Positions 1-59,969 of a stretch of DNA of 64,000 nucleotides are shown piece by piece. The stretch comes from Phyllobacterium zundukense (GTDB taxonomy: Bacteria; Pseudomonadota; Alphaproteobacteria; Rhizobiales; Rhizobiaceae), in contig NZ_CP104973.1 in assembly GCF_025452195.1 (NCBI RefSeq), positions 744,001-808,000 on the forward strand, read 5' to 3'. How positions within the stretch are numbered: position 1 is the stretch's first letter; each line of letters begins with the position of its first letter. A model generated the notes under the pieces. It was not told the DNA's origin and ran no database searches. It worked only from the letters and a program-made list of their open reading frames with translations. The translations under genes were made by a program, and so were the position numbers.

Positions 1-198
1 GCCCGCAGACAGGGTCTGTGCTCAGCACATGGCAGAGAGCTTTTCTTCAGCGAGCAGGATCTGACTGATATTTGGGAAGTGATGAGGGTGGCGGCACGAG
101 ACAACATAAGGCCGGCACACGTATTCCCGTCTGAAGCGAGACTGATGGAGAAACTTCGGAAACTCACAGAAAAGAAAACACGTCGTACGGTACGCTGA
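1..198 (+). CDS. C-terminal fragment of an unidentified protein, possibly excisionase/HTH-like
   Basis: Frame 1 is open from the first base to a TGA at 196-198 and gives a basic, charged tail. It contains GRELFFSEQDLTDIWEVMR and ends KKTRRTVR. The gene starts left of the window. A 'hydrophobic FSE-x-D-hydrophobic' stretch followed by a basic tail recalls small HTH or excisionase-like proteins found beside integrases in rhizobial prophages. That likeness is from memory and weak. The 64-bp gap to the next plus-strand gene has no terminator that I can see. Confidence 0.5.
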   Translation, partial: ARRQGLCSAHGRELFFSEQDLTDIWEVMRVAARDNIRPAHVFPSEARLMEKLRKLTEKKTRRTVR

Positions 199-262
199 AT
201 ACAACTTGCATTCCTGCAGACCTGCACGCATAGATTGCATCCATTGGGTTGGGGGAATTCCT

Positions 263-709
263 ATGAAGTTCAAAATGGTGGCGCTAGCTTCTGCGTGCGC
301 TCTGACCGGCTGCATGAGCGCGAACGTGAACATGTATCCAATCCAAGGACCGCTCGCCAAACAAGTGCCGCTACCCACAGTGAAGGCCGTTGCGATGGGC
401 GTAGAGAATAACAGCGGGCCCATCAAGGCCACTCTCGCTGACGGTCAGTTGTGCAATGGCACCTGGTCGTCGGCTGCACCACGAATTGGCGCCGTCACCA
501 CAGGATCGCTCTTCAGCCTTTACGGTGGAGCTGTATACGGCTCATCCGTGACAACTGGCATCATGCCAGGCGTCAACAAGGGCCAAGCCTTCATGACTTG
601 CAATAGAGGCACCACGGTAGACGCTGAGTTTTATACGGGAAGCGGAACGGCAAGCGGATATGGAATCGCAAAGGATAGCGCAGGCAACGTTTACAAGATG
701 TTGTTCTAA
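263..709 (+). CDS. Small lipoprotein, prophage cargo
   Basis: The 148-residue product begins MKFKMVALASACALTGCMS, a type II signal peptide with lipobox LTGC at Cys16. It is predicted to be lipidated and exported. The ATG at 263 was preferred over upstream starts because a G-rich ribosome site (GGGGGAATTCCT) lies just before it and the signal peptide follows directly. The rest is rich in Gly, Thr and Ser, without a domain that I recognise. It sits on the opposite strand to the phage late genes, which fits a lysogenic-conversion (moron) gene. The function is unknown. Confidence 0.7.
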   Translation: MKFKMVALASACALTGCMSANVNMYPIQGPLAKQVPLPTVKAVAMGVENNSGPIKATLADGQLCNGTWSSAAPRIGAVTTGSLFSLYGGAVYGSSVTTGIMPGVNKGQAFMTCNRGTTVDAEFYTGSGTASGYGIAKDSAGNVYKMLF

Positions 710-711
710 GC

Positions 712-1239
712 TCAGTTATCGACTTTTTTTCTAGGTGCCGATTTCGCAACCATACGGCCTTTTTCCGCTGGACTCTTGACGGCCGGCTCTTTGTGAACAG
801 GAAGTGGTGGCAGGCTGGTCGCCGCGGCCCAATCTAAAGTGGCGAAGAGACTCCTAAAGTATGGGTAACATGCAAATACAGCTACCCGATTAAGGAAAAC
901 CATCGTGGCCTCTTCGTCGCAGTCGACCAAATTATCGTATGTAACTGCGTATTCAGCCTTACAGACAAGGGTTTTTTTCCTGCCGGTTTTAGCAGCGACT
1001 TCGAAGCCAATAAACGCCATGGCTACGCAGTCCTCATGTGAGAACTGCTGTCCACCTTTTATAACAACGTATCCAAGACTCCTGTCGGCTTCGTCAGAGA
1101 AAAATTCGGGCTTTACGTTAAATTCTACTGACGTCACTTGAACCGCCCTCAGCTGGGCAACTCCCACGACATGACTGTATTTTTCGAGCCGATCCTTTTT
1201 TTGGTCTGACGGCCCAGCTATTTCGGACTTTTTTGCCAT
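712..1239 (-). CDS. SecB-like chaperone of a toxin-antitoxin-chaperone (TAC) operon
   Basis: The product has 175 residues. The core (about 25-150) follows the SecB fold pattern: a first strand with VTSVEFNVKPEFF, then FIGFEVAAKTGRKKTLVCKAEYAVTY (quoted in parts), then an acidic turn, then a helix with FACYPYFRSL and a conserved LPPLPV near the end. SecB-like proteins of TAC modules such as M. tuberculosis Rv1957 share the YPYFR...LPPLP signature. The basic Lys/Ala tail (about 150-175) is extra. The ATG at 1239 comes one base after the stop of the antitoxin gene, so translation is probably coupled. By analogy the chaperone holds and folds the antitoxin so that it can neutralise the toxin. General export SecB is usually elsewhere on the chromosome. 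Confidence 0.75.
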   Translation of the reverse strand: MAKKSEIAGPSDQKKDRLEKYSHVVGVAQLRAVQVTSVEFNVKPEFFSDEADRSLGYVVIKGGQQFSHEDCVAMAFIGFEVAAKTGRKKTLVCKAEYAVTYDNLVDCDEEATMVFLNRVAVFACYPYFRSLFATLDWAAATSLPPLPVHKEPAVKSPAEKGRMVAKSAPRKKVDN

Positions 1240-1240
1240 G

Positions 1241-1666
1241 CTAAGCTGCTTCGAGTATGAGGTCGTCTGCGTAGTTCTCGTTCGCATATGTTTCTTGTGC
1301 GCCCCAAGCTCTGTACGCCTCGCGAGCCTGACAGGCCATAATTGCGAAACCTCTGTCCGCCGTAGCTTCGACCACACGGTTTTCGCGATCGGTGTGACGG
1401 CGCCCATACTTTACGAGCTTCGACTGGTAGTCAGCCTTGATATCCAGAACGTGCAATGCGCGCCCGACCAACTTAATCGTAGGGTTGGCTTCGGAAGAGA
1501 GGAGTTGGCTAACACGTGCACGCGTTACGCCCAGCAACTCTGCGAGACGAGCCTGCGTGATACCCTTGCTCTTCATGGCATCAAGAATAGCGAACTGAAA
1601 ATCCATCAAAGCATTTTCTTCTGCCTCGATGAAATCATACTCTGCCCGTTTTGCTACGTTCTTCAT
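1241..1666 (-). CDS. higA: HigA-like XRE antitoxin with C-terminal extension
   Basis: The product has 141 residues. Residues about 20-85 form a Cro/C1-type helix-turn-helix (AILDAMKSKGITQARLAELL, then VTRARVSQLLS). The tail of about 55 residues after the HTH is hydrophobic and aromatic and contains AYRAWGAQETYANENY. Ordinary HigA proteins lack such a tail. In TAC systems this region is the chaperone-addiction segment bound by the SecB-like partner; that role here is inferred. The ATG at 1666 overlaps the toxin stop codon (TGATG), and an AGAGGTAGGG ribosome site lies inside the toxin gene. It probably also represses the operon. Confidence 0.8.
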   Translation of the reverse strand: MKNVAKRAEYDFIEAEENALMDFQFAILDAMKSKGITQARLAELLGVTRARVSQLLSSEANPTIKLVGRALHVLDIKADYQSKLVKYGRRHTDRENRVVEATADRGFAIMACQAREAYRAWGAQETYANENYADDLILEAA

Positions 1667-2127
1667 CACCCTACCTCTTCTGATTTCTCAGCCGCCTTTT
1701 TTATTTTTTTTGGATCGGCTTTATCTTGTTTTTTGCTGGGATCGCACGCTGTTCCTACATACGCTTTCCTGCCTTTATATTGCTTGATGACGCCATATAT
1801 TCGAAATTGATACGACTTAAACTCATGTATCTGCACCGTGTTCCCAGCGCCGTCTTTCGCGCGGCCCAACGACTTGAACATCTTCTCGCCAAGAGGCTGG
1901 CCGTTCGAGAACCTTTCAAAGTACCGAGGAAGCTGCGCTGCAGATCGACGACTAGTCTCGTCCGTACGGTCGAGGAGGGCCTCGTACTCTTCCCTGGCTT
2001 CACCAAACAACCAGACATCTGCATGAGACCCGGACGCAACCAGACCTTCGCGGCCGTTGTCGGAAGCGTCTTTTCCAGGCTGTCGCCTATGAGAATGTGC
2101 ATTGCGATCGCGGCTTCTTCTGTCCAT
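1666..2127 (-). CDS. higB: HigB/RelE-like toxin (phage Gp49-like family)
   Basis: The product is up to 153 residues. The toxin fold spans about 38-150: VWLFGEAREEYEALL, then LPRYFERFSNGQPLGEKMFK, then FKSYQFRIYGVIKQYKGRK, ending in a Lys-rich helix with KKQDKADPKKIKKAA. This order fits the HigB/Gp49-like ribosome-dependent mRNA interferases. The first 37 residues are unusually basic and His-rich, and the true start could lie further in, although no in-frame ATG is available there. It is the first gene of the toxin-antitoxin-chaperone operon, the order also seen for HigB1-HigA1-Rv1957. The antitoxin gene overlaps it by one base. Confidence 0.75.
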   Translation of the reverse strand: MDRRSRDRNAHSHRRQPGKDASDNGREGLVASGSHADVWLFGEAREEYEALLDRTDETSRRSAAQLPRYFERFSNGQPLGEKMFKSLGRAKDGAGNTVQIHEFKSYQFRIYGVIKQYKGRKAYVGTACDPSKKQDKADPKKIKKAAEKSEEVG

Positions 2128-2399
2128 ATTTCACTTCAAGAGTTAAGATATGCCTAAACACGAATCAAGAGGTATGGCAATGGTTAACACATCAACTTTT
2201 CTTTATTTCGATCGAAACTACCTCAAATAGATTAGATTTGTATTTGCACTATCGCATAAATGTAACAACTTTCCATGAAAGCTTTGAACCATCAACAGAA
2301 ACTATGTGCTTGAGAAACCATAAGTTTTTGCATCATCGGTTCGCCCCACATCCACACAATGATCACCCCCCCCCGTGCAAATTCAGGGCTCATAGACTA

Positions 2400-2431
2400 G
2401 ACGGTGAGCGCCAAACCTCACCGTCATTTTT
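2400..2431 (+). terminator. Rho-independent terminator
   Basis: A perfect 9-bp stem (GACGGTGAG / CTCACCGTC, loop of 8) is followed by ATTTTT. The T run is only on the plus-strand side. No convincing gene ends just upstream on the plus strand (2130-2400 is A+T-rich and shows only shadow frames), so it may end an untranslated transcript. Confidence 0.65.
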
Positions 2432-2563
2432 AATTGAAATCTGTGTATAGGATGAGCCGTAGGCCTTTAGTCCGTATTGCCACTGCCAATTGAAGGGCAG
2501 TTTGGAAGCGTCGGCTCCCCCGGGCCGGCAACGCCTGCCAAAGAGGATACCGCTTCTTTTTCA

Positions 2564-2620
2564 CAGCAGGCCCAACGAGGCTCGAACCTCTGGTAATTTG
2601 CGTTCTGGAGGATCGGGCCT
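2564..2620 (-). other. Shortened tRNA-like sequence or tRNA relic
   Basis: On the minus strand AGGCCCG (2620-2614) pairs over 7 bases with TGGGCCT (2574-2568). This is followed by G-CTG, resembling an acceptor stem plus a degenerate CCA. Just before the 3' half is GAGGTTCGAGCCTC, which looks like a T-arm core. Only 39 bases lie between the acceptor halves, against about 59 in a full tRNA, and the T stem does not pair in the normal register. It is therefore not a functional canonical tRNA. It could be a decayed phage tRNA or an attachment-site relic. Confidence 0.3.
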
Positions 2621-2727
2621 CACCTTTTGTTAACCATACAGGCGCACGCTTTGCACTGACTATAGTGCCCACTTTGTCGGCACCCGGCCTGCTATCGTTG
2701 TTGTGCGTATGTGACAGGCAGGTCGGG

Positions 2728-2862
2728 ATGTTCTATCCAGATTGGGAGATGGTGCCCGTAATGCGTAAGAATGACATGACCCGCTTATCTGTGTTCGACT
2801 TAATTTTCATTGTTTCGGCCGTCGCCTCTTTGTCGGTTCTCTGCTGGTTCTTCCCGTCATAG
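2728..2862 (+). CDS. Possible small membrane protein
   Basis: The 44-residue frame ends in a strongly hydrophobic helix (VFDLIFIVSAVASLSVLCWF). Possible starts are ATG 2728 (after GCAGGTCGGG), 2749 or 2761. Its stop overlaps the stop of the convergent phage gene by 6 bp, a tight packing also seen for the 3422-3754 and 3755-5782 pair. There is no homology that I recognise, and it could be spurious. Confidence 0.35.
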   Translation: MFYPDWEMVPVMRKNDMTRLSVFDLIFIVSAVASLSVLCWFFPS

Positions 2863-3141
2863 CCGCGCCGCCTCGGTAAAGAACTGATCAACCTGCTCTT
2901 CCGTAAACCCGAGCGCGTCAAACCCGAGCACCAGCATTTCATCTGTCCGGACGAATGAACCCGATTCTTCGAAGGCTATTTGGACAAGCTCCGGCTGAGA
3001 GGCGATCCAAGTCTCCACCTGCGCACTCAAACCCGAAATGGCGAGTTGCATCTTGAATTGTCTACGAGAGACGGTAGAGGGCACTGATGCGCGTGCCTTA
3101 TCTTCCGCCGTGATCAGTTTCGACCAATCTATGTTATTCAC
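2857..3141 (-). CDS. Phage tail-associated hypothetical protein
   Basis: The 94-residue product begins MNNIDWSKLITAEDKARA and ends LGFTEEQVDQFFTEAARL. The GTG start at 3141 has a strong GGAGGAG ribosome site. Proteins with a 'W-x-K-L-I-T-A-E-D-K' head and a short helical C-terminus are common downstream of tail genes in temperate phages, but I cannot assign a role. It lies downstream of the tape measure gene on the same strand, which supports a tail-region origin. The preceding frame (stop at 3134-3136) overlaps its start by 8 bp. Confidence 0.6.
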   Translation of the reverse strand: MNNIDWSKLITAEDKARASVPSTVSRRQFKMQLAISGLSAQVETWIASQPELVQIAFEESGSFVRTDEMLVLGFDALGFTEEQVDQFFTEAARL

Positions 3142-3317
3142 TTTCGGGCTCCTCCGATGGAATTGCTACCGCCCCGTCGGGCGCGTTCAGTATCGGTTCC
3201 GGGAATGCGACGATTGGCGAAGGGTTAGGCCCGTGAGGAAGGAGCAACGTAGTCGGCTTCCCATTGGGCGTGCGCAGGACACGGCTTCTCGGCCGCCGTT
3301 TTCACGTCGTTGTTCAT
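3134..3317 (-). pseudogene. Small phage gene apparently split by a frameshift
   Basis: An ATG at 3317 with ribosome site AAGGAATCC opens MNNDVKTAAEKP and then runs out at a TAA (3225-3227). A second frame open from about 3300 reads RVLRTPNGKPTTLLLPHGPN and ends with AIPSEEPESE at 3134, overlapping the next gene by 8 bp as operon genes often do. Neither half is a good gene alone: the second has no ATG or GTG. Joined near 3283 they make a coherent protein of about 60 residues. A one-base deletion, or a sequencing error, would explain this. Confidence 0.4.
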
Positions 3318-3421
3318 GTTGGATTCCTTGATTTTTCAGCCGATCGATTCAAATTCGAGAGAGTTTGAGCGGCAAGTTTTTACAGTTCGGTGGTGAAATC
3401 GCGCGTGGGGAGTACGTGCCA

Positions 3422-3754
3422 ATGTCGCCGTGGAAAAAGAGTTCAGCAGAGATTGTCGAGTTCAACTCGGTGCGGTATCGGCGCAAGGTCAGGTCGTACT
3501 ACGATAGGGTGCGATCAGTACTTAGCTTCGCGTTCAAGCTCTGTGTATTAGCAATGGCTGGCATCGGGCTATATATTGCGAGTTCGTTCGAACCTCCCGA
3601 GTATTCTAGCGCAAGCAGCCTGATTACCCGGCCATCATACGTTCCGCGGACCTGCAGGACGGCCCAACCTTCCGCACGTCGTGGTCAGCCAGGTTATTTT
3701 GCGCACCTCGATCGCGATAAGGATGGCATTTCCTGCGAGCCCCGGCCGAGGTAG
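3422..3754 (+). CDS. Membrane-anchored excalibur calcium-binding domain protein
   Basis: The product has 110 residues. A basic N-terminus is followed by one transmembrane helix (about 31-53, SFAFKLCVLAMAGIGLYIAS), a spacer, and a C-terminal excalibur motif with CRTAQPSARRGQPGYFAHLD, then RDKDGISCEP. The DxDxDG loop and paired cysteines are typical of that extracellular domain. ATG 3422 has GGGGAG upstream; an in-frame TTG at 3365 would add 19 residues. Its TAG touches the stop of the convergent tape measure gene. It is plus-strand cargo within the prophage, probably facing the periplasm. Confidence 0.7.
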   Translation: MSPWKKSSAEIVEFNSVRYRRKVRSYYDRVRSVLSFAFKLCVLAMAGIGLYIASSFEPPEYSSASSLITRPSYVPRTCRTAQPSARRGQPGYFAHLDRDKDGISCEPRPR

Positions 3755-5782
3755 CTATCTCAACTTCACATTCGATTGATTGGCCTTGCGAACGGTGGCA
3801 ACGATGGTCGCAGGAAGCTCTCGCCTCATCTGTGCGAGTGCCTGTTCGGTTCGTGCCACGGCTTCTACGGAGGCGCCGCGGTTGTCGATTGTGGGATTAA
3901 AGTTCACCACGACACTCTGGCCACCGCCGCTTACGCCTCGCAGTGGCGGCATGCTCGGGGCGGTCAGTCGATGGTTCGGGATGATTTGCGCACCTTTCGG
4001 CACATTCATGAGTTCGGGGCCCTTTTCTCCCACCCATGCTAGGCCGCCAGGTGCATTGTTCGTGCCACCTGCAAACCCCATAATTTTGCCGAGGCCCGAG
4101 AAGATGTTGCCGAAAGAGCCGCCAGCGTCATTTCCGGATGCTGGTTTGAACAGTGAATCAAAAGCCTGATTGAGCAGCATGTCTCCAAGCTTCTTCGCCA
4201 GATCTGACAATGCGTCGCCAAGACTTTTCGCACCTGTAATCGCGTCGATCGCACCGCTTTTGAATGTATCGTAAAACTCGCCAGCAGCTTGCTCTGACTT
4301 ATCTTGCGCATCCTGAACTTTGCGGAGCTCATTGGCCTGGTTGGCATACGCGGCCGACACCTCGTCGATTTTAGCCTTCTGATCGTCGGACAACTTGATG
4401 TTCTCGAGGTCCGTCTGGCCTTTTCTACGGGCCTCTTCGCGAAGGTCAGCCAGAGCGGACTGCTCTAGGTCAAGTGCCATGCGTCGGCGTTCTTGTGCCT
4501 CGTAGCCTTTGCCCACCATGGCTGTTTCTTCGGCTAAAGCGGCAGTTCGGTCCTTCGTGGCCTGTATGTCGTCGTTGAATCTACTGTCTGCAGTCTTCTT
4601 TACCGCTGGTGCGCCTTTCGCCTTTGTGGCCTTCGCGGGCACCTTATAATCCGCCAACGACACAGGGCGGATTGGTTTTCCGCCTGTTACGTCGAGCGTG
4701 GTGCCTGGTTTGTCCTCAGTCGCAGTAGCGCCAAACGCATCATTAATGCGCTGTTGAATCTGACGGTCAGAACGATACGGCGTGGCGCCAAGCGATCGGC
4801 CTACCTCGTCAAGGCCCGTGGCAGCACCGAACGCAGCGGACATCTCAAGGGCAGCTGTAGTGACAGCGCTGACCCACCCATGAAGTTTTTCCAAGGGCCC
4901 GACGAGCGAATTGATGATGTTGCCGGACTCTTTCATAGCTCTGGCCATCCTGTCGATGGTTTGTGCTAGAAGGACCGCTGCATCCGAATTGTTATCGAAC
5001 TGGCGGGCGGTATCGATCAGGATATTCTGAAGACGAGTAAAACCCTGCGAAACCGTTAGCTGCGAACCGCCGACCTTATCTTGCAGTGTGCTGGCGCCTG
5101 CCTCGAATGCACGGAAGAACGCTTTGGACGACACCTTCCCATCCTTCACCAGGCGGGTTAGCGCCGAGACCGAGCCGCCAGCTTCCTTGAGACCGGCCGC
5201 TGTTGCCTGCAGGAGGGGCTGGGCGCCATCCAGCAAGGAATTGTACTCCTCTGCTTGAACAACGCCATTGCCGAGTGCCTGGGACAATTGCAGGAGTGCG
5301 CCACTAGCTTCTTGCGCCGAGGTACCGCCAACGCGCAACGACAGTGCAACGTTGTCTGTGAACTTGAGCAACTCCTGCTGACTCACGCCCAAATCCGTGG
5401 CGGACTGCGAGGCGCGTCCGTACAGTGTTACTAGATCCTCGATCGGCGCGGCGTTCTTCTGCGCGCTGGCGAACAGACTGTCATACACAACGTTAAGCTG
5501 CTCACCAGATTGGCCGGCAACCTTAAGGGCGTTGGAAATACGCGTCGACGTATCAATAAGCGACTGAGCACCCTTCAGTGCGCCAGCCGCTGCAAACGCT
5601 CCAGCAAAACCCTTGCCTGCAGAGGCAAAGGACGCCGACAAGTTGCTGTTCATCTTTTTAGCTCGCGCCTCGACTGCACGCATTTGTTTGTTCGAGATGC
5701 CGTTCGCGCGATTCATCGCGTTTTCGAATTTTTTGATATCGGCCGATAACGAAACGACGAGAGCTTGAAGGTCCTGAGCCAT
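3755..5782 (-). CDS. Phage tail tape measure protein
   Basis: The product has 675 residues. The N-terminal half (about 60-250) matches the tape measure N-terminal domain, with LKVAGQSGEQLNVVYDSLFA, then YGRASQSATDLGVSQQELL, GALLQLSQALGNGVVQAEEY and SSKAFFRAFEAG. Hydrophobic and coiled segments follow. The end carries GGLAWVGEKGPELMNVPKGA, common in lambda-like tape measure C-termini. Size predicts a short siphovirus tail (roughly 100 nm by the usual 0.15 nm per residue rule). The start MAQDLQALVVSL at 5782 overlaps the preceding stop (TAATG). An intact reading frame among missing structural genes is notable. Confidence 0.9.
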   Translation of the reverse strand: MAQDLQALVVSLSADIKKFENAMNRANGISNKQMRAVEARAKKMNSNLSASFASAGKGFAGAFAAAGALKGAQSLIDTSTRISNALKVAGQSGEQLNVVYDSLFASAQKNAAPIEDLVTLYGRASQSATDLGVSQQELLKFTDNVALSLRVGGTSAQEASGALLQLSQALGNGVVQAEEYNSLLDGAQPLLQATAAGLKEAGGSVSALTRLVKDGKVSSKAFFRAFEAGASTLQDKVGGSQLTVSQGFTRLQNILIDTARQFDNNSDAAVLLAQTIDRMARAMKESGNIINSLVGPLEKLHGWVSAVTTAALEMSAAFGAATGLDEVGRSLGATPYRSDRQIQQRINDAFGATATEDKPGTTLDVTGGKPIRPVSLADYKVPAKATKAKGAPAVKKTADSRFNDDIQATKDRTAALAEETAMVGKGYEAQERRRMALDLEQSALADLREEARRKGQTDLENIKLSDDQKAKIDEVSAAYANQANELRKVQDAQDKSEQAAGEFYDTFKSGAIDAITGAKSLGDALSDLAKKLGDMLLNQAFDSLFKPASGNDAGGSFGNIFSGLGKIMGFAGGTNNAPGGLAWVGEKGPELMNVPKGAQIIPNHRLTAPSMPPLRGVSGGGQSVVVNFNPTIDNRGASVEAVARTEQALAQMRRELPATIVATVRKANQSNVKLR

Positions 5783-5976
5783 TACTGCTCGCCTCGCGGT
5801 GCGGCCCATGCCAACAAGAAGCATGTTGCATCGGCCTTACGGCCAGTGTCTGCACCCCACAGCGCAAGCGCCTGAGTGATAAACGCATCCGCAACGGTAG
5901 TTGGCTCGATATCGCCGGCAACAAGTCGATCGATGAGACGGTGGGCACCGCGTGTTGCGGTTTCAAATTGAGTCAT
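5782..5976 (-). CDS. Small phage protein upstream of tape measure
   Basis: The 64-residue product begins MTQFETATRGAHRLIDRLVA and contains ADAFITQALALWGADTG. The ATG at 5976 is chosen because GGAGAAGAAG precedes it; an upstream in-frame ATG (5994) lacks such a site. The stop overlaps the tape measure start. Its position matches that of tail assembly chaperones, but size and sequence do not let me claim that. Probably a tail morphogenesis accessory. Confidence 0.6.
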   Translation of the reverse strand: MTQFETATRGAHRLIDRLVAGDIEPTTVADAFITQALALWGADTGRKADATCFLLAWAAPRGEQ

Positions 5977-6125
5977 GGATTTCTTCTTCTCCATATGAAA
6001 GGCCCGCTCGATGGCGGGCAAAGATGGTTAATAATTGGAGCTAGGTCCAAGTGACTAAATCGTAGTGTTTGCTCTGTTGGTAACGGAGTGTTAAGGATTG
6101 TTACGTCCGCAAAAGCGGCACGCCT

Positions 6126-6392
6126 ATGTTGAAAATACTTGTATCGTCATCGATACACTTCAAATTCAAAGGAAAGCATGTGCCAGACCCAGAACACGGC
6201 CTCATCGGCCGCGGACAAACAGTATTAATGGCGATTCTACTAGTTGGCGTATTAACTCTATCTTGGAGTGTGGGCGCATGGTTGGCCCCGACCAATGACG
6301 ATACTGCCATTGAAACTTACGCCTCTGAGGCGGGGATAGACCTCACCGGAACAAATCCTCATCAGGATCCGCAGCTTCAGGCGACCAACTGA
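6126..6392 (+). CDS. Small membrane protein
   Basis: The 88-residue frame has one clear transmembrane helix (about 34-53, MAILLVGVLTLSWSVGAWLA) and an acidic tail. ATG 6126 lacks a strong ribosome site. The last 50 bases overlap the 3' end of the convergent gene at 6343-6717. It has the pattern of other plus-strand cargo in this prophage. No family is recognised. Confidence 0.45.
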   Translation: MLKILVSSSIHFKFKGKHVPDPEHGLIGRGQTVLMAILLVGVLTLSWSVGAWLAPTNDDTAIETYASEAGIDLTGTNPHQDPQLQATN

Positions 6393-6717
6393 TCTTGCCC
6401 GCACTGACGGGCGTCGCGCCAAGCTGACCAAGAACTTGCCTCAAAAGCTGCATTCCTGGGACGCCGAGTGTGCCAGCCTGCATACTGGCCTGGAGATGAG
6501 CGGCCAATGCAACGATGCAGCGATGACTGCGGTTCAGCCAAGGCAGGCGGTTGGCCATGTCATGCCAAGCCTCGCTTTGCGGCTTGTTCAGCCAAAACGG
6601 AGGCGAGCCAAGGCCCTCCGCAACGTTAGGCTCAGTTCGGTTGCGATAACGCTGCGGATTCTTTGCGATTGCACCCGATAAACGGGCTGCTGCAAGTGGT
6701 TTACGAGGTGGTGCCAT
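6343..6717 (-). CDS. Terminase small-subunit-like phage protein
   Basis: The product has 124 residues. A basic start (MAPPRKPLAAARLSGAIAKN) is followed by PPFWLNKPQSEAWHDMANRL, PWLNRSHRCIVALAAHLQAS, then LLRQVLGQLGATPVSAGKI and an acidic end. This matches my memory of phage small-terminase-like proteins that precede large terminases. No large terminase follows here, and the gene sits downstream of the capsid gene, which is unusual. ATG 6717 was chosen because residues upstream in the longer frame look non-coding. Confidence 0.55.
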   Translation of the reverse strand: MAPPRKPLAAARLSGAIAKNPQRYRNRTEPNVAEGLGSPPFWLNKPQSEAWHDMANRLPWLNRSHRCIVALAAHLQASMQAGTLGVPGMQLLRQVLGQLGATPVSAGKISWSPEAADPDEDLFR

Positions 6718-6855
6718 AAGCTTGACCCATTGTTTGATACGTGGAAATGCGCGCGATGCGGGGGCACAGGTCCGCGGAAACGACCAAGCGACGAGTTGCG
6801 AGGCACCCCCGGCCATGCCACTCTGAGACTGCGTAAGCATAACGGGAGATTCGCG

Positions 6856-7116
6856 GTGTCAGACTGGAATGCAGAAGAGTTCTACGAGGAGAACAGACAG
6901 AACGAAGCGACCTTCATCATAGCAACTCAACCCATGCATGAAGACCTTAGATCTACGCTGAACGTTGTGCTTTCACAGATATTGCATATGAAGATTGGTG
7001 GTTATGGATGTCTCGGTGTGGTACATACTGATGAGGGCGACGTCCATTTATCGCCAGAACAGTATGCTGATCTGCTTCGCATGCAGCAACGGTTCGAGGA
7101 CGAGCAGCTAACCTGA
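6856..7116 (+). CDS. Hypothetical cargo protein
   Basis: The 86-residue acidic product contains NAEEFYEENRQNEATFIIAT and ends LLRMQQRFEDEQLT. The GTG at 6856 has CGGGAG eight bases upstream; the longer frame from 6730 overlaps the opposite-strand gene. It looks like a compact alpha/beta protein without membrane segments. No family recognised. It lies between two minus-strand phage genes. Confidence 0.55.
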   Translation: MSDWNAEEFYEENRQNEATFIIATQPMHEDLRSTLNVVLSQILHMKIGGYGCLGVVHTDEGDVHLSPEQYADLLRMQQRFEDEQLT

Positions 7117-7183
7117 GTTGTAAGAAGAAGACGCCGCGCGCAAGGCCTAAGCCAAGGGGACTCGCGCAGCGCCGTGCTCAAGA

Positions 7184-7221
7184 TGAATGAAGGAAGAAAG
7201 GTTATGGCGGGCCTTCATTCA
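7184..7221. repeat. Perfect 10-bp inverted repeat between convergent genes
   Basis: TGAATGAAGG (7184-7193) pairs with CCTTCATTCA (7212-7221) across an 18-base loop. It lies between the ends of the plus-strand gene at 6856 and the minus-strand capsid gene. No T run follows on either strand, so it is a weak terminator candidate or an mRNA-stabilising hairpin. Confidence 0.4.
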
Positions 7222-7260
7222 CCGCGACCGAGCAGGTCGTCAACACCCCCCGCCGAATAG

Positions 7261-8391
7261 TTAGCCGCTCACCGTGCCGTACAGATCGCCTGTGATGAAT
7301 GCATCAGGACGAAACACAGCCAATGCCAAACGTGACTCGATGCGTATGGTGGCACGGTTGGTAACAAAGTCGTCTTCGTTCTCAGTCGAGAGAAGGACTT
7401 CAGTTTCCAATCGATCGTATATGGAAGCTCCCTCACCGAAGGCACCGGTAAGAAACTCACCCGAAGCCATGGCGTTCGTCGCAACAATCTGAACGTTCCA
7501 CAAACGCGGGTCAGTCAGACCGAATGGCGACTGCCCGGATATGTACCGGCCTTCACCATCTTTCACGTTTGTAATACGACGCCAGTCCCGCTTGTTGAGG
7601 ATGACAGCGTTGACTGGAATGTCAGAGTCCTCGGCCTGGCTGATAGCCTGCAGGATGCGGTCAATGGCGGTTTCGCTGGTCGAGGTAAACTGCGGATCGA
7701 ACGCGGTTGCCTGCGGAACAATACCCAGCAGATTTTGGCCAGTACCAGAGCCGTTAAGAACCTGTTGCTCTTCCACAAACTGGAGGCCATAGGTGCCGCG
7801 TCGACCAATGTATGCCGCGAGCGCAGGAGCGTCGTCCAGCATCTGCCTAGATATCTTAAACGTATGGGCCAGTGTACGAACTGGCGCAGACTCCATATTA
7901 AAAGCCAGATCAGACTTCGGCTTCAGGGTCGTTTCAGCAACTGGAGCAGCGTTGTTGGTGAAGCTAGTTTCACGGACGAACTCGACGCTGTTAGACGTTG
8001 TGCGAGCGCTGCCAATAACGTCGCGAATTTTCAGCTCGCGTTCGTATGGAGTGATGATACCAGCGACGCGATGTCCAGCAACCAGTGATGTGCCCTGAGA
8101 ACGGCCAGCGCCCACCGTAGTATTTCCAGACGTGATGTCCGCCCGTTCACCCGCAAGCTTGACTACAGCCTTGCCACGGAAAGACGATGTCAGGTCCTGA
8201 ATCTCCTGGGAAGCTGCAATGGCAGCCGCTAGGGGATTATTGTCGTTTGCGGCGCCAATGTAATTGTCATTATCGTAGTGTGGATCGCGGGCCATTCGCT
8301 TTTCGATTTCCGAAACGCGTGTGCCGTATTCACTCTTAAAATCATTGATAGAGTCGGCGATTGCGCCAATTTTACTTGCTAGTTCAGACAT
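7261..8391 (-). CDS. HK97-type phage major capsid protein
   Basis: The product has 376 residues. A helical, acidic N-terminal delta-like region (1-75) is followed by the HK97 fold: the E-loop area near VGAGRSQGTSLVAGHRVAGI, then RDVIGSARTTSNSVEFVRET, MLDDAPALAAYIGRRGTYGL, GSGTGQNLLGIVPQATAF and NAVILNKRDWRRITNVKDGE, ending in A-domain strands TIRIESRLALAVFRPDAFIT. Such proteins are normally cut by a prohead protease after the delta domain, but no protease gene is present nearby. The ATG at 8391 has a purine-rich site just after the stop of the preceding gene. Confidence 0.93.
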   Translation of the reverse strand: MSELASKIGAIADSINDFKSEYGTRVSEIEKRMARDPHYDNDNYIGAANDNNPLAAAIAASQEIQDLTSSFRGKAVVKLAGERADITSGNTTVGAGRSQGTSLVAGHRVAGIITPYERELKIRDVIGSARTTSNSVEFVRETSFTNNAAPVAETTLKPKSDLAFNMESAPVRTLAHTFKISRQMLDDAPALAAYIGRRGTYGLQFVEEQQVLNGSGTGQNLLGIVPQATAFDPQFTSTSETAIDRILQAISQAEDSDIPVNAVILNKRDWRRITNVKDGEGRYISGQSPFGLTDPRLWNVQIVATNAMASGEFLTGAFGEGASIYDRLETEVLLSTENEDDFVTNRATIRIESRLALAVFRPDAFITGDLYGTVSG

Positions 8392-8400
8392 TTGGATTCC

Positions 8401-8799
8401 TTAAGGTTTGTAGCCGGCAGCTAATGCTGCCGTGCATGCGAGGCGTGCCTTCTGACGGGCGTCGATGCGTGCGGATTGTATGTTGGATGGATGTTGTGCG
8501 GTTTGGGTGGTGGCTAGCTTGGTGCCGAGGGACGCTGCCAACCTGGCGAGTGCGTCGCCGTGGTCGTCGTGAATAGCGTCCTGTTCCGCAATGAGCTCGT
8601 TCAATCGGTAAAAAACCGATTCTCGCTTCGCTTGCGAAGACATTCCGTATTGAGCGTTTAGCTGTCGTGATAGGACAGCAGGATCCGAAATGTCGCTGTC
8701 TGCGTAGTCTTTGTTAAAGACGCCCTCTACGTCTAGATCGGGAGGCAAGCCGATCAATCCGCCCTCGAGCCGAGGGAAGATATAGGTCTTTTCAGTCAT
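8401..8799 (-). CDS. Hypothetical phage protein before the capsid gene
   Basis: The 132-residue product begins MTEKTYIFPRLEGGLIGLPP and ends ARLACTAALAAGYKP. The middle is helical and charged (RLNELIAEQDAIHDDHGDAL). ATG 8799 follows AAGGAAATCA. It is separated by 9 bp from the capsid gene and from the gene upstream, so it belongs to the same transcript. The position is where a scaffold or protease would be expected, but no protease motif is present. Confidence 0.65.
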   Translation of the reverse strand: MTEKTYIFPRLEGGLIGLPPDLDVEGVFNKDYADSDISDPAVLSRQLNAQYGMSSQAKRESVFYRLNELIAEQDAIHDDHGDALARLAASLGTKLATTQTAQHPSNIQSARIDARQKARLACTAALAAGYKP

Positions 8800-8808
8800 T
8801 TGATTTCC

Positions 8809-9330
8809 TTATTGGAAGGCTCTCTGGAGCCGAGCGAGTTCGACTAACGAATCCGCCTGAGTTGGCACATGTCCCTGCAGTTCAGCAGCAATCGCCATGA
8901 GTGCGTAACCGGGCACTATTGAAGCCTTGGCTGCGGTCTTGGTCGGGGTGTCGCTACCGTAGACGTGATGAGCGCCGTCAATGATTACCGAAACGCCTGG
9001 TGGGTCGTGTCGAAGAATGACGTGACCTACGTCGGCAGGAGGACCAAACAATACTTCGGAGAGTGCATCCCCGAAACGCAGGCCATTCTGGCTTGTAAGG
9101 CGCGAGAACGCCTCGACCGATGAATGAACATTACCCAGCCCATTGTCTGCCAATGTCGCTAGGACGAGGCGAGTAACCTCGATTTCGTTAAGTTCGGGCG
9201 GATACCTGCGCGAGCCTTCTGCTTTTGATATCTGGCCATCATCCGCCAACCTGGCTGCGATGTGATGCACGCGGCTGGGTAAAATATTGAGCCGACGTGC
9301 TAGAATTTCGACGGCATGCGATTTCCGCAT
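8809..9330 (-). CDS. Hypothetical phage protein with N-terminal HTH-like segment
   Basis: The product has 173 residues. The first 40 form a likely helix-turn-helix (AVEILARRLNILPSRVHHIA, then ARLADDGQI). Later blocks include FGDALSEVLFGPPADVGHVI and VSVIIDGAHHVYG. A GGAGGCG site lies seven bases before ATG 9330. First gene of the capsid transcript. A DNA-binding role is possible, but a head-connector or packaging role cannot be excluded. Not a known family to me. Confidence 0.6.
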   Translation of the reverse strand: MRKSHAVEILARRLNILPSRVHHIAARLADDGQISKAEGSRRYPPELNEIEVTRLVLATLADNGLGNVHSSVEAFSRLTSQNGLRFGDALSEVLFGPPADVGHVILRHDPPGVSVIIDGAHHVYGSDTPTKTAAKASIVPGYALMAIAAELQGHVPTQADSLVELARLQRAFQ

Positions 9331-9574
9331 CACGACGCCTCCATTTGTTGGTAATTGATATTGAGCGCTTAAAAAAACGCGGCGGAGGCTGACGAGTCAC
9401 GGGAATGGGTGTGCCGTCCATTCCCGCGCTCAAGCCATCCACGATGAGGAGAAGCAAATCGTGGATTCGTTCGGGTCGCCAGTACATCCGTGGTCGACCA
9501 AAAAGTGTGGCGCTCGCCCCGCTACGGGAAACAAGCGCCGTATGCCGTGAGAACCGCCAAGAACGCACGGCAAA

Positions 9575-9599
9575 GAAAAAGGCCGCTCGAAAGCGACCT
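9575..9599 (-). terminator. Rho-independent terminator with UUCG tetraloop
   Basis: On the minus strand AGGTCGCT-TTCG-AGCGGCCT forms an 8-bp stem closed by a UUCG tetraloop and is followed by TTTTTC. It stands about 50 bp after the stop of the 9650-10651 gene and separates it from the capsid operon. Confidence 0.85.
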
Positions 9600-9649
9600 G
9601 AATTCTTGTCTCTACTATATACGCGCCCAGACGGCACGATTTGTAACAT

Positions 9650-10651
9650 TCATGCGGCTTTTTCTTTTTCCTGTCCGTTGTCGTTCGCCACAAGCACCGA
9701 AACTGCGCGCAGGAAGGCATGCTTGCCAGCCTTGTCGGCATACCTGCCTTTGTATCCAAGTCGAGTTCCAATATCGGTAAAGGTCGAGTTTGAGAGTGCC
9801 TCCTCGAGAACGCGCGCCTCGGCCTCTGGCAATTCTGGCTTCTCGTACTGCTGCGCCAATGGTATCGCGCCCCGCGATGAAGTTTGCTTTGCTCTTACCA
9901 CGCCACCAAGCCATATGGCGCCCTGGTAAGCGATGCCAGGCGGGCATTTGGTGACTGGAAATGCTGCGATTCTGTCCCGCCACACTGCAAGCTCGTTGTC
10001 CGCGTCTATCGCGCTGTCAGTACGCGACGCAGCTACATGCGCACCTCCCCGGAAGGACACTGGTACACGGTATTCATCGCTGCGATCGACGCCGCGCAAA
10101 TCGAGATAACCAAGCTTGCGTGGATTGCGCTCGCCTACCGTGGGCAGCTTAACAACGCGTTTCTGCGTCTTGCCTCCCCTCGGCTTTTTAGTCTTGACCT
10201 CGGGTGCTACTGGCTTGCCTGCCTTGTCGGTTTGGTAGGAGACCATCAGGCCCGATGCGCGGCCATGCTCGCGGCGGATGGGATTGCTGCTGAAAACTAG
10301 GTCGCCAACACGTGTAGTGCGTCCTTCAGTGGCAGGCTGGTCGCCGTGCTCTAATGCAATCCATGTGGATGGCTTGGAGCTCTTTAACTGGCGCCTGCGC
10401 TCTACGGTGTTCGTTGCACGCGTGCGGTACGCCTGCGAAACCATGTCATCGGGCTTTGGCTTGGTTTCATGCAGATATTCAATAGATGGCTTTAGCGGGG
10501 TGTTGCCGTCTATATCTGTTTCACGTTCTAATGTTTGGTGGTTGTCATTGGCTGGCTTGCCGTATTGGCGCAGAACGTAACCTGCCTTTGGGTCTTGCTT
10601 TAACAGCCAGGTTACGAGGCGAGCGCCTCCGCGGAATCTATATGTGCTCAT
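9650..10651 (-). CDS. Hypothetical phage/rhizobial protein
   Basis: The 333-residue product begins MSTYRFRGGARLVTWLLKQD. It is basic in the middle (KTKKPRGGKTQKRVVKLP) and ends with VLVANDNGQEKEKAA; an ANDN string near the end is common in Rhizobiales hypothetical proteins. Residues about 265-320 (PELPEAEARVLEEALSNSTF, then GTRLGYKGRYADKAGKHAF) resemble a small HTH-like helical domain. Not recognised as a known enzyme. It is the only gene in its transcript and has its own terminator at 9575-9599. Confidence 0.6.
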   Translation of the reverse strand: MSTYRFRGGARLVTWLLKQDPKAGYVLRQYGKPANDNHQTLERETDIDGNTPLKPSIEYLHETKPKPDDMVSQAYRTRATNTVERRRQLKSSKPSTWIALEHGDQPATEGRTTRVGDLVFSSNPIRREHGRASGLMVSYQTDKAGKPVAPEVKTKKPRGGKTQKRVVKLPTVGERNPRKLGYLDLRGVDRSDEYRVPVSFRGGAHVAASRTDSAIDADNELAVWRDRIAAFPVTKCPPGIAYQGAIWLGGVVRAKQTSSRGAIPLAQQYEKPELPEAEARVLEEALSNSTFTDIGTRLGYKGRYADKAGKHAFLRAVSVLVANDNGQEKEKAA

Positions 10652-11101
10652 GCGTGTGAAATCATTTTGGCGGTTCCTTTGTTGAAGCCGGCGTCATTGC
10701 TGGCGTTTCTACAGTGTCTGATAAACATTAGATCGCGCAATCGAATGCGTGAATCTATGCCCTCTATACTGTTAGCAGATGATATCAGACCCACTTCTGA
10801 TCTGTGTTAAGGGGCCATTTACTCAAAAAATAAATGTGGTGGAGGAGGCTATCGCTCTGGCAAGCGGTGTCTAAATGGGCGCCTCATCAGGAAAAAACAC
10901 TCGCGGAGGATGGCAAGCGGGAACGTCAGCAACTCTAAGGGGCGCAAGACTCACTCTCTGGTTGGAGTCTACTCCAGTCCCAGAAGTTCTTGGCCGTTGG
11001 CTCCGGTCATTCTTGTCAACGTATGCCACACACAAGATAGAGTGTGTCGTTCCAGTTATGTTCACGCTATATGTTGCGTGAGCAATGTTGATGTGAGATA
11101 A
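10652..11101. other. 450-bp stretch with no confident gene
   Basis: The promoter of the minus-strand gene at 10651 should lie at the left of this stretch. A plus-strand frame (10875-11081, 68 residues) and an overlapping shifted frame (10910-11101) are open. Neither has a well-spaced ribosome site or a recognisable motif. The bidirectional terminator at 11102-11140 follows, so a short plus-strand transcript is possible. Confidence 0.4.
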
Positions 11102-11140
11102 TAAAAAAACGGTCACGAAGGTTCGTAACCGTCTTTCTTT
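11102..11140. terminator. Bidirectional rho-independent terminator
   Basis: ACGGTCACGAA and TTCGTAACCGT form an 11-bp stem with one mismatch. Seven A's precede it and CTTTCTTT follows, so it can work in both directions. Confidence 0.75.
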
Positions 11141-11261
11141 GTTTCTGGTGTTGCTGCGGTTTCGTGCTGCCGTCTCTACAACAGAAGGCGCGAATCCAAC
11201 GTCCTGACAGGCTTGGTGTAGCGCTAAGAGGGATCCAATTCAAGCACAACGGAATACTCGA

Positions 11262-11594
11262 ATGCTAAATGGTTTGTATAGGGTTCAATTCTCTACCCCT
11301 CAGGGCGGTATGGGCGCAGGTGTTGTGTTTGCGCAAGACGGTAAGATGTATGGAGGCGATTCGGGAATTTATTACTTGGGTGCTTATCGTGCAGCTAACG
11401 GGCAGATGCAGGCGCAAGTACACATAAACCGCCATACTTACGATCCAAACATCGTATCAGTGTTTGGCAAGGATCAAGTGACAATTGATATCGTTGGCAG
11501 TTACGATAACCAGAACAATGTTAAATGCACGGGAACGTCTGCCCAGGCGCCAGGGGTACCCTTTACCGCTGAGCTTAATTTGCTGCCCGGCTGA
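11262..11594 (+). CDS. GrlR-family regulatory-like protein
   Basis: The product has 110 residues: MLNGLYRVQFSTPQGGMGAG, then GGDSGIYYLGAYRAANGQM, then VSVFGKDQVTIDIVG and APGVPFTAELNLL. The order matches the small beta-barrel GrlR family, in which 'GGDS' plus a lone Tyr/Gly strand is typical. In enteropathogenic E. coli GrlR is the anti-activator of GrlA. No GrlA or type III secretion gene is visible here, so the target is unknown. A terminator follows at 11607. Confidence 0.7.
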   Translation: MLNGLYRVQFSTPQGGMGAGVVFAQDGKMYGGDSGIYYLGAYRAANGQMQAQVHINRHTYDPNIVSVFGKDQVTIDIVGSYDNQNNVKCTGTSAQAPGVPFTAELNLLPG

Positions 11595-11606
11595 TATACT
11601 CGTTAC

Positions 11607-11645
11607 AACGCCCCTGCTTCACGGCCGGGGCGTTTATTCCTTTTT
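11607..11645 (+). terminator. Rho-independent terminator after the GrlR-like gene
   Basis: AACGCCCC and GGGGCGTT form an 8-bp stem with a 12-base loop, followed by TATTCCTTTTT. Confidence 0.8.
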
Positions 11646-11704
11646 ACGATGCTGGCCTGCTTAGAAAAAGTAATTGCAGCCTATTACAACTCAGGGGACA
11701 AGTA

Positions 11705-11905
11705 ATGAACCCACACTCACACTGGCTTGAAGAACAAATAGCAAACCTCAAGCAAATAATTGCGGCGCTTGAAGGCGGCAACTATCGAACTTGGGATTGG
11801 AACCACGGCGAGAAGCAAAGGGAAACCACGCAAGACAATTTGGCCAAAGCCAAAAAGGATTTGCCCGAATTAGAGTCCCTGCTCGCCAGATTGAAGGCTG
11901 AATAA
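11705..11905 (+). CDS. Small helical hypothetical protein
   Basis: The 66-residue product reads as two helices: WLEEQIANLKQIIAALEGG and, after RTWDWNHGEKQ, a Lys/Glu/Leu coiled-coil-like end (DLPELESLLARLKAE). AGGGGAC lies six bases before ATG 11705. No family recognised. Same strand as the neighbouring cargo genes. Confidence 0.6.
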   Translation: MNPHSHWLEEQIANLKQIIAALEGGNYRTWDWNHGEKQRETTQDNLAKAKKDLPELESLLARLKAE

Positions 11906-11988
11906 GAAGACACCTGAAGATCGCGGCGGCCTCCAGTAGTCTTGATACGTGAAGCGTGCGATATCTTTGCCTGTTGGGGGACAGAGTC

Positions 11989-12498
11989 ATGAATAGCAAC
12001 ACCGCATCAATTATCGCATCAGTGTTTACCGCCTTGGCCACCATCGTCATTGGCTATGTCGGCTATTCTGTTAAGGCGGATAGCGAGAGAACGGTCGAGG
12101 CGATTCGGTCGCAAACAGCCCTACAGCAATCACTTATGAACTCACAATACCAAGCCAGACAGCTTGATATTGAAATGGTCAAACTAGCCCTCAACATACT
12201 CGGCGGCGATATCAGTGACAAAACCAACCAAAGCCGGCAGTTCGCAGTACAGGTCCTTCAACGCTATTCAGGAGTGGAGTTGAAGGACGAAGTAGTTGCG
12301 GAATGGGTTAAGACGGGTACTGTGGCTTTCAAACTGCCAGATCAAGGATTGTCTTCCGGTACATGGAAAGACCTACTGTCAGAGCGCACCGCTGTAATGC
12401 GCCAATTGGAAAACCTAGGAAAATACGGAGCAGACGGAGCGGATGCCTATCCTCAATTGAGACAGATTGAGCCTACTCCTCAATTGAAGCAGAGATAA
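11989..12498 (+). CDS. Membrane-anchored hypothetical protein
   Basis: The product has 169 residues. One N-terminal transmembrane helix (about 6-28, SIIASVFTALATIVIGYVGY) is followed by a long charged helix (SERTVEAIRSQTALQQSLMN) and a soluble C-terminal half with a 'LERYSGV'-like helix (FAVQVLQRYSGVELKDEVVA). ATG 11989 follows GGGGGAC, better supported than the longer start at 11956. N-out or N-in topology is not clear. No known family. Confidence 0.6.
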   Translation: MNSNTASIIASVFTALATIVIGYVGYSVKADSERTVEAIRSQTALQQSLMNSQYQARQLDIEMVKLALNILGGDISDKTNQSRQFAVQVLQRYSGVELKDEVVAEWVKTGTVAFKLPDQGLSSGTWKDLLSERTAVMRQLENLGKYGADGADAYPQLRQIEPTPQLKQR

Positions 12499-12697
12499 CG
12501 TCCATATCTAGAGATGGCGACATAAATATACGGTACGATCCCTATTTGACGGCGGACACATCTCAATATCTTGATTGATATATACAATATTATAGCAATC
12601 AGTGGCTTGCGCAGCACAGCGACTCATCGGATTCTATTCGATAGCCCTGTCAACCCCTGGCAGAGCTCGTCAAGAATAGAAAGGCAGGTGAGTTCAA

Positions 12698-12808
12698 ATG
12701 AGTAAGATTGGCCGTAACGCAGGTAGTGGGAAGTTTACATCGGTGAAAACCGCCGTAACACATCCCAAAACCCACGTCGTTGAAACGATCAAACCGACTA
12801 AGAAATAG
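12698..12808 (+). CDS. 36-residue basic small protein
   Basis: The reading frame MSKIGRNAGSGKFTSVKTAV continues to ETIKPTKK and stops at 12806-12808. A textbook AGGTGAG ribosome site lies six bases upstream and a strong terminator starts 18 bp downstream, so it is very probably expressed. Small proteins beginning 'MSKIGRNA-x-x-G-x-F' recur in rhizobial genomes, phages and plasmids without known function; that is from memory. It is highly basic and could bind nucleic acid. Confidence 0.7.
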   Translation: MSKIGRNAGSGKFTSVKTAVTHPKTHVVETIKPTKK

Positions 12809-12826
12809 TCTGGAATGATCGGGGAT

Positions 12827-12867
12827 CTGGGCGGTTGCTTTGGAACGGAGCCGCCCAGGTTCTTTTA
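12827..12867 (+). terminator. Rho-independent terminator
   Basis: CTGGGCGG and CCGCCCAG form an 8-bp stem, extended by a GC pair inside, followed by GTTCTTTT. It ends the transcript of the 36-residue gene. Confidence 0.8.
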
Positions 12868-12927
12868 GTAAGCGTATTCGCTTACTGTGTCACGTGAACT
12901 GTTAAAAAGTTTCCACACATTTGAGTG

Positions 12928-13212
12928 TCACGCCGCTTCCTGCAGATTGTCATTCTCGGGATGAGGCAAGTCACCTTCCAGTGAGCTAGCCACGTCACAG
13001 AAAATCAATCCGTCTTCTTGATTGATGACGACAAACTCAAACGACGAGTCTGTGCTTAAGGCCGGTCTGATGCCAACCACACTCACTGGTACGAGCGTGC
13101 CGCGTCTGTTCCACAACGCGCTAAACGGTGTGATCGGTGTGACTACAGGCTGAGGAACTGTGACCGCAGCAATGCGTTCCTCGATCAACGCTTCTATTTC
13201 ATACGGTTCCAT
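12928..13212 (-). CDS. Hypothetical protein in phage replication operon
   Basis: The 94-residue product begins MEPYEIEALIEERIAAVTVP, contains FVVINQEDGLIFCDVAS and ends ENDNLQEAA. Its ATG overlaps the stop of the replication gene (TAATG), so it is translationally coupled. It is acidic, with a likely beta-rich centre. No family recognised. Confidence 0.6.
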   Translation of the reverse strand: MEPYEIEALIEERIAAVTVPQPVVTPITPFSALWNRRGTLVPVSVVGIRPALSTDSSFEFVVINQEDGLIFCDVASSLEGDLPHPENDNLQEAA

Positions 13213-14405: not shown

Positions 14406-14634
14406 AGGCTGTCGCCTCCAAGGCTGCTATCGCAGCTTCTGTGATTTCTTGAGCAATGATGGGGTGGAAGGTGGCAACGTTCTTCCCGCAAGAATGCGGG
14501 GAATGGATCCTGACCTTGCCATCGGCATTCTTTTTCAGCAGCAAGCTGTAGAGCCTGACGTGCTCGGTTAGCTCGACATCGACGCGAGCTAAAGCGGCCG
14601 GCCCATCTAGGCGCCGGATCGAAAGGATTCTCAT
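14389..14634 (-). CDS. Conserved small phage/rhizobial protein
   Basis: The 81-residue product begins MRILSIRRLDGPAALARVDV, contains VRLYSLLLKKNADGKVRI and ends with a helix (AQEITEAAIAALEATAY). AGGAGA is six bases before ATG 14634. It overlaps the start of the replication gene by 17 bp and is the first gene of that operon. The strand pattern and an HSPHSCGKN loop resemble SpoVG-like small nucleic-acid-binding proteins, but the match is loose. Confidence 0.6.
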   Translation of the reverse strand: MRILSIRRLDGPAALARVDVELTEHVRLYSLLLKKNADGKVRIHSPHSCGKNVATFHPIIAQEITEAAIAALEATAYDHHR

Positions 14635-14892
14635 GGAATCTCCTAGTTGGATGACTTCGGTAACTGCCTGCAATCAAATCAAAGGCTTGATGCTAAGGTG
14701 CGGTTAAAGCCGCTTCAGTTAATTAATGTTAAGGATCAAGGCATTGGAACTATGGACCCCCTCTCAGCCGGAATTGATGCGCTTCGAGCAGGACTAACTC
14801 TTCACACATACGGCTCCAGCATATAATGTTCGGTACGACTGCGGGTGCCCCTGCAGCCCCCTGCATGTATCGAGCTGGGAGAGTACACCGCC

Positions 14893-59915: not shown

Positions 59916-59969
59916 GTATCACGCCACGATACATCTTGATTGACTATGACTTGTATCAACATATGATAC
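59916..59969 (+). promoter_or_regulatory. higBA promoter with two operator-like palindromes
   Basis: GTATCA-N5-CGATAC (59916-59932) and GTATCA-N5-TGATAC (59953-59969) are near-identical palindromes 37 bp apart. TTGACT (59940-59945) and TATGAT (59962-59967), 16 bp apart, form a likely promoter covered by the second site. Typical for an autoregulated antitoxin. Confidence 0.55.

Follow-up and report, generated by a model that had tools for sequence, protein, structure and literature searches.

In toxin-antitoxin-chaperone (TAC) modules, a SecB-like chaperone binds a C-terminal extension of the antitoxin, the ChAD. In the Mycobacterium tuberculosis system (HigB1-HigA1-Rv1957), the chaperone is contacted by W108, R110 and Y114 of HigA1, and Y114 also reaches the L154-P155-P156-L157 stretch of the chaperone (PMC6377645). 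The ClpX degron of HigA1 (Val-Ala) lies in the same extension (PMC8165232). In CmdTAC, the antitoxin CmdA ends in LAA, an ending that its authors also ascribe to other members of this antitoxin class. It is lost via ClpP without the chaperone CmdC, which the T4 capsid protein pulls off (PMC11618068). HigBAC of Escherichia coli strain C496 is triggered by the major tail protein of phage lambda (PMC11980606). According to a 2014 survey, 52 of 688 SecB sequences are encoded next to toxin-antitoxin genes, and the majority of TAC chaperones fall into eight diverged groups (PMC4257090). Here we describe a module in a 64,000-nt stretch of Phyllobacterium zundukense DNA (contig NZ_CP104973.1, positions 744,001 to 808,000; the whole stretch is called the window). 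By its anatomy it is a TAC, and it fails the cut-offs of the ordinary HigBA families. It is probably a TAC on a small prophage or phage satellite, with an antitoxin tail that combines a chaperone-binding segment and a counterfeit of the host transfer-messenger RNA (tmRNA) tag. This reading builds on computed gene order, folds, linkage, a tag-like tail conserved in the clade, and the tmRNA tag and SspB of the hosts.

HigBAC is likewise composed of a RelE-superfamily toxin, an antitoxin and a SecB-like chaperone (PMC11980606). The two are likened by description rather than by sequence, and the present copy is itself phage-borne, unlike HigBAC. The M. tuberculosis toxin has no recognisable sequence similarity to the present one. 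CmdT is by its description an ADP-ribosyltransferase; the model of the present toxin matches HigB/RelE entries. A search at the level of titles and abstract openings, with most subscription papers outside it, found no description of ssrA-like antitoxin ends or of alphaproteobacterial SecB-like toxin-antitoxin modules.

Gene order and protein folds

The module is comprised of three minus-strand genes, for the toxin (1666..2127, 153 aa), the antitoxin (1241..1666) and the SecB-like chaperone of the TAC type (712..1239, 175 aa). The antitoxin is counted as 141 aa from the ATG at 1666, whereas the list of open reading frames (ORFs) starts it at GTG 1669. The toxin stop and the antitoxin start share 1 bp (TGATG), and a single nucleotide separates the antitoxin stop from the chaperone ATG. 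The coordinates bear out the TAC order, the overlap and the spacing of the original prediction, and the coupling of the three genes is seen both in ORF positions and in a profile scan of the loci. Scans for promoters and terminators gave nothing beyond shuffled-sequence level.

The top PDB structural match of the chaperone model (pLDDT, the model confidence score, 88) is the TAC chaperone Rv1957, followed by SecB, which supports the SecB fold proposed earlier for the third protein; a missing SecB-fold match, one of the two outcomes named beforehand as refuting, was not what came out. The predicted YPYFR and LPPLP signature is present, and its columns are mostly invariant (Y125-R129, L143-P145 and P147) across 21 aligned sequences; the LPPLP motif is kept in this family. 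With the single chaperone sequence, searches of Pfam, PADLOC, NCBIfam and PDB came back empty, and PHROGs gave one match, put down to chance (E 0.18). A phage tblastn and a first viral scan with it found none, and a plasmid search returned three Sphingobium records. Relatives became detectable only after alignments were built.

The toxin belongs to a family without annotation. With Foldseek alone, its model had no match below E 0.29, and RelE entries led. HigB was distinguished only at a second look (VIA), which placed HigB1 from the M. tuberculosis TAC among the best matches. The model supports a RelE/HigB-fold protein within a toxin superfamily, with R89, K104, R109, K132 and K136 as candidate active-site residues, and the toxin may be a ribosome-dependent mRNA cleaver. 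The Gp49-like assignment made earlier falls short by sequence (PF05973, E 0.071, 13.6 bits against a cut-off of 23.9; matches at E <= 1 in 2 of 10 family members), while the structural match supports a HigB fold. The toxin has no PF05015 match at E <= 1 and the antitoxin reaches 16.6 bits against the TIGR02607 cut-off of 47.7, both of which leave the module outside the two-component HigBA class. Against PDB sequences, the A5 toxin profile gave 0 matches and the A7 profile 10, all unrelated. In PADLOC-DB 2.0.0 at E <= 1, toxin and chaperone were without match, and the antitoxin had 16 weak matches over its helix-turn-helix (HTH) region. This XRE/Cro-type HTH is recognised by Pfam (PF01381 HTH_3, E 3.8e-10, 40.1 bits).

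The toxin has a basic head (residues 1-29, isoelectric point 11.2; pLDDT < 50 at residues 6-25) and the chaperone a basic, low-confidence C-terminal tail (isoelectric point 10.6). Both had been pointed out as basic and unusual, and the basic character is borne out; several relatives likewise have Lys-rich chaperone tails of varying length. The window also carries the HigBA pair that had been offered as a contrast. It exists (HigB, 59936-60268, plus strand, PF05015, 4.8e-16; HigA, 60296-60637, plus strand), and it is of little value as a contrast because its toxin belongs to a different family and EAA is the end of its antitoxin, too.

The antitoxin tail and the host tmRNA tag

The antitoxin continues beyond its HTH in a C-terminal tail of 62 residues (1244..1429, minus strand), which has a conserved Trp, an ssrA-like box and a final AA. 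The tail is hydrophilic (hydropathy score, GRAVY, -0.78), and the hydrophobic tail of about 55 residues described in the original prediction was rejected. At E <= 0.001, a profile made from seven antitoxins found at least 238 homologs; the counts below are for the best 120. The tail alignment holds 108 of these best 120, each of at least 125 aa and no two identical. Past residue 80, the columns conserved in at least 50% are W (106 of 108), A (81), N (102), N (93), A (65) and A (106), and the second Asn sits two residues after the first. Tyr80, at the tail start, is found in 69/108, and a Trp lies within the last 45 residues in 100/108.

We defined a strict box as N[DEGSNTH]N in the last 25 residues. 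It occurs in 87 of the best 120 homologs (86/108), every one of which also ends in A; the terminus is AA in 85 of the 120. Among 368 crude ORFs from 400 kb of the own genome, the box was seen in 2, an AA end in 9, and box with final A in 1. The box was absent from toxin homologs (0/102) and chaperone homologs (0/14), and 1000 rounds of shuffled tails gave a mean of 2.8 and a maximum of 10 of 108. A control set of 30 HigA antitoxins, taken from the own genome and its relatives and with more than one candidate ORF in 2 cases, had the box in 0/30, a final A in 22/30 and AA in 16/30. An AA end alone was rejected as a TAC mark because these 16, the window's own HigA included, end in the same way. 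Since the antitoxin profile included the tail, 20 modules are a fairer sample than profile-found homologs; they have the strict box in 8, a final A in 20 and AA in 16. In the family sample, all five genomes picked out with the toxin and chaperone profiles have the strict box (window, L004, L005, L007 and L008). One antitoxin (L099) ends in EANDNFYDAAEMKAA. A looser box, N[DE] with a final A, was picked after viewing the tails and is found in 12/20 modules and 5/368 ORFs.

The tag of the host's own tmRNA, according to ARAGORN, is ANDNYAEARLAA, to which the antitoxin end ANENYADDLILEAA (1244..1285, minus strand) is likened. They share A-N-[DE]-N-Y-A and then A-A at a similar distance from the C-terminus, with the box 13 residues from the end in the tail and 11 in the tag. 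Unlike the tag, the antitoxin end is gene-encoded on one protein, without trans-translation, and has a longer, variable middle; the box codons differ synonymously from the tag codons. In each of 11 tmRNAs, drawn from 10 genomes, the encoded tag starts with AN[DS]N and finishes with AA. The antitoxin box starts 11-14 residues from the end in 61/86 and 10-12 in 35/86, and tags have 10-12; the spacing is close to that of tags, not identical. Aligned to its own tag, the window tail scores 31 (tag against itself, 59), compared with a best of 22 among the 368 background ORFs and 19 among the 30 HigA. The background 99th percentile (20) is exceeded by 65 of the best 120 homologs and 0/30 HigA. The median antitoxin score falls from 21 with the own tag to 15 with the reversed and 13 with the scrambled tag, with the background at 11, so the similarity is partly, not wholly, one of composition.

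Alphaproteobacterial SspB reads the A-N-D-N part of the tag, and SspB (PF04386) is encoded in 8/8 genomes, the own genome among them. The host of the window has both the adaptor and the tag that an ssrA-type degron of A-N-[DE]-N and AA at near-tag spacing would call for. The ssrA tag is modular, with one part for SspB and another for ClpXP (PMC8512704). By contrast, no adaptor is described for M. tuberculosis ClpX in the accessible text (PMC8165232), and the HigA1 tail is of other sequence. The three modules in hosts with the tag ANDNYAEARLAA have [DE]NYA, and the two in ANDNNAKGYALAA hosts have ANSN and ANGN; with n=5, this tracking of host tag type is only suggestive. A Devosia metagenome-assembled genome (MAG) that holds one of the loci (L006) has two tmRNA genes with the tags ANDNNKAPVALAA and ANSNYAKVSLAA, possibly through MAG contamination or a mobile tmRNA.

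Proposed mechanism and competing explanations

We propose the following for toxicity, binding, degradation, trigger and role in defence. The HTH antitoxin would bind the toxin and presumably repress the operon. The tail segment with the Trp would be the site for the SecB-like chaperone, while the C-terminus (A-N-[DE]-N-Y-A ... A-A) would deliver unbound antitoxin to the adaptor SspB and to ClpXP, its A-N-D-N part serving the adaptor. With the chaperone on the tail, the antitoxin would survive. If the chaperone were drawn off, for example by capsid or tail proteins that an invading phage has newly made, exposure of the tag would lead to loss of the antitoxin, and the toxin would halt translation. 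The logic would be that of CmdTAC, whose LAA-ended antitoxin is destroyed by ClpP once its chaperone is lost (PMC11618068), and of the M. tuberculosis TAC; what we propose is a fuller forgery of the host tag. It would give a reason for antitoxin loss without the chaperone, namely an ssrA-type tag with a possible adaptor site, beyond a hydrophobic end. If so, toxin-antitoxin control would be tied to trans-translation quality control. This TAC family without annotation is often phage-borne, with a toxin family above no Pfam model's cut-off, and tag forgeries may be worth seeking in other antitoxins and phage proteins.

Several observations count against the forged tag. The strict box is missing from 12/20 modules, including those of G335 and G311, whose hosts have ANDN-type tags. 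The antitoxins of G953 and G863 have NDN boxes, but a search of these two genomes gave no alpha-tmRNA. Of the 30 HigA antitoxins, 16 share the AA end, and on average the box is set slightly deeper in the antitoxin than in tags. Composition accounts for some of the tag similarity, as the reversed-tag median shows against the background. The best 120 of at least 238 matches are biased towards similar tails by the tail in the profile. The Trp is assigned to the chaperone by analogy with HigA1 W108.

The strongest alternative, which we hold to be a real possibility at somewhat less than even chances, is an ordinary TAC without tmRNA mimicry. The A-N-x-N would then belong to the chaperone site, and AA would either be a general signal for ClpX or arise as a side effect of the chaperone ribosome-binding site. 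The AA ends of HigA proteins agree with it, and most of the 20 modules, though not L003 and L099, leave almost no gap between antitoxin end and chaperone start or have the two overlapping. The M. tuberculosis degron inside the ChAD fits as well, and the accessible sequence of the last 13 HigA1 residues (residues 137-144 and primer) has neither the ssrA-like box nor N-x-N. A ribosome-binding site, however, cannot account for a box some 30-45 nt upstream, nor does this alternative explain a box near host-tag spacing or tails that score higher with the host tag than with its reversed or scrambled forms. The distance from Trp to box differs between homologs, as two separate sites would lead one to expect.

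It is very unlikely that the module is a two-component toxin-antitoxin system beside a SecB-like gene that serves the phage by folding its structural proteins. Several copies do lie within phage structural modules. By PHROGs, L008 has a tape measure and a large terminase, L010 a tape measure and an integrase, and L032 a major head protein; in L012 the module sits between large terminase and portal. In L099, whose terminase is 53% like that of L012, it sits between a portal-like gene (49% to the L012 portal) and a prohead protease-like gene (by eye). The same order is nevertheless found in chromosomes (for example L007, beside uvrB), in phages and, in divergent form, on a conjugative plasmid, and the chaperone gene follows the antitoxin in 18/19 loci with a profile-recognised toxin, window counted. 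Besides the window, 20 distinct loci were collected from genome, plasmid and IMG/VR searches (L002, with other neighbours, was excluded). Profiles recognise the antitoxin in 20/20, the chaperone in 19, the toxin in 18 and all three in 17; antitoxin-chaperone pairs number 20 with the window. Because these loci were found via chaperone or toxin and some are inside the profiles, genome samples give a fairer count of linkage. The samples overlap, and the own genome is in all. In 297 genomes from the host's family, chaperone and toxin profiles both match in the same 5, with the two genes adjacent. In 385 class genomes, the chaperone profile matches 3 and the toxin profile those 3 and G559. In 288 order genomes, the toxin profile matches 2 and the chaperone profile those 2 and G863, where a RelE-like ORF (by eye) missed by the toxin profile lies upstream. 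The recurring triad, with its Rv1957/SecB fold and HigB1-like toxin, supports the TAC interpretation first made from the window.

G559 bears on the same question, as its pair has a DUF6941 gene in place of SecB. In this locus (L030, 4650-6119), a toxin relative and an HTH antitoxin are followed by an overlapping DUF6941 gene (PF22091, 3e-10), which raises the question of a third partner of another kind. Its antitoxin, without SecB, has LRK as its last residues, with neither the strict box nor a final A, though an N-W-N occurs 24 residues before the end.

The least probable account is that a decaying prophage carries the module as inactive cargo. This is highly unlikely even with an element of only ~17.9 kb, whose scanned ORFs include neither a large terminase nor a portal, as all three reading frames are open, near-invariant residues are retained in all three proteins and the module recurs at unrelated sites.

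Returning to the forged tag, a further step is doubtful: through a gene-encoded tmRNA-tag forgery, the module would sense two shared pools, the SecB-like chaperone and SspB/ClpXP capacity. If the toxin cuts mRNA in the ribosome, it would leave stalled ribosomes and many truly tmRNA-tagged peptides. These would compete for SspB/ClpXP and spare the antitoxin, making the toxin self-limiting with ribosome rescue as feedback. In this way a phage-borne copy could cut short infection by a rival while sparing the host that carries it.

The carrying element and divergent relatives

The original prediction called the module prophage-borne, and an integrase, phage genes and a flanking 57-bp direct repeat agree. 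The right copy of the repeat lies at 14694..14750 (no strand; 57 bp, 1 mismatch) and the left copy at 16819-16875 of L014, adjoining the integrase (L014 16883-18112). The repeats, about 17.9 kb apart, are likely the ends of the element, which comprises window 1-14750 and the L014 16819-20000 side. It encodes the integrase, an excisionase, a major head protein (7261..8391, minus strand; phrog_10, E 7.9e-62), a tail tape measure (3755..5824, minus strand; phrog_17300, E 6.2e-91) and a replication initiator, and is either satellite-like or a remnant. A lipoprotein-like ORF (by eye; window 206-709, plus strand) stands tail to tail with the chaperone gene and ends 2 bases away; in L008 (4484-4879) and L010 (4259-4924), too, the module has a lipoprotein-like ORF close by.

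L099 (1288-4786) and L012 (1-4439) have related terminase-portal head modules, which we take to be gene-transfer-agent-like, with the TAC at different junctions (portal/protease versus terminase/portal). In L032 (G335), a phage major head gene (3317-4282) stands on one side of the module and a second stretch of it (6249-6737) on the other. This stretch is identical over 163 residues from residue 139 on and lies at the contig end, through duplication or an assembly effect.

Two Sphingobium baderi plasmids hold more distant arrangements. On NZ_CP128178.1 (L002, 1947-4483), a chaperone relative follows a 245-aa protein that ends in EDLAA and has a sub-threshold MarR-like winged helix. It is preceded by a 417-aa protein without a Pfam match or a meaningful PDB match. 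This may be a TAC with another toxin, with E, K and C motifs that look nitrilase-like by eye. On the conjugative plasmid NZ_CP128179.1 (L003, 3047-4471), a divergent triad, the first gene of which is unrecognised by the toxin profile, adjoins a Mov34/MPN/PAD-1 protein and a metallohydrolase, possibly in a defence-rich spot.
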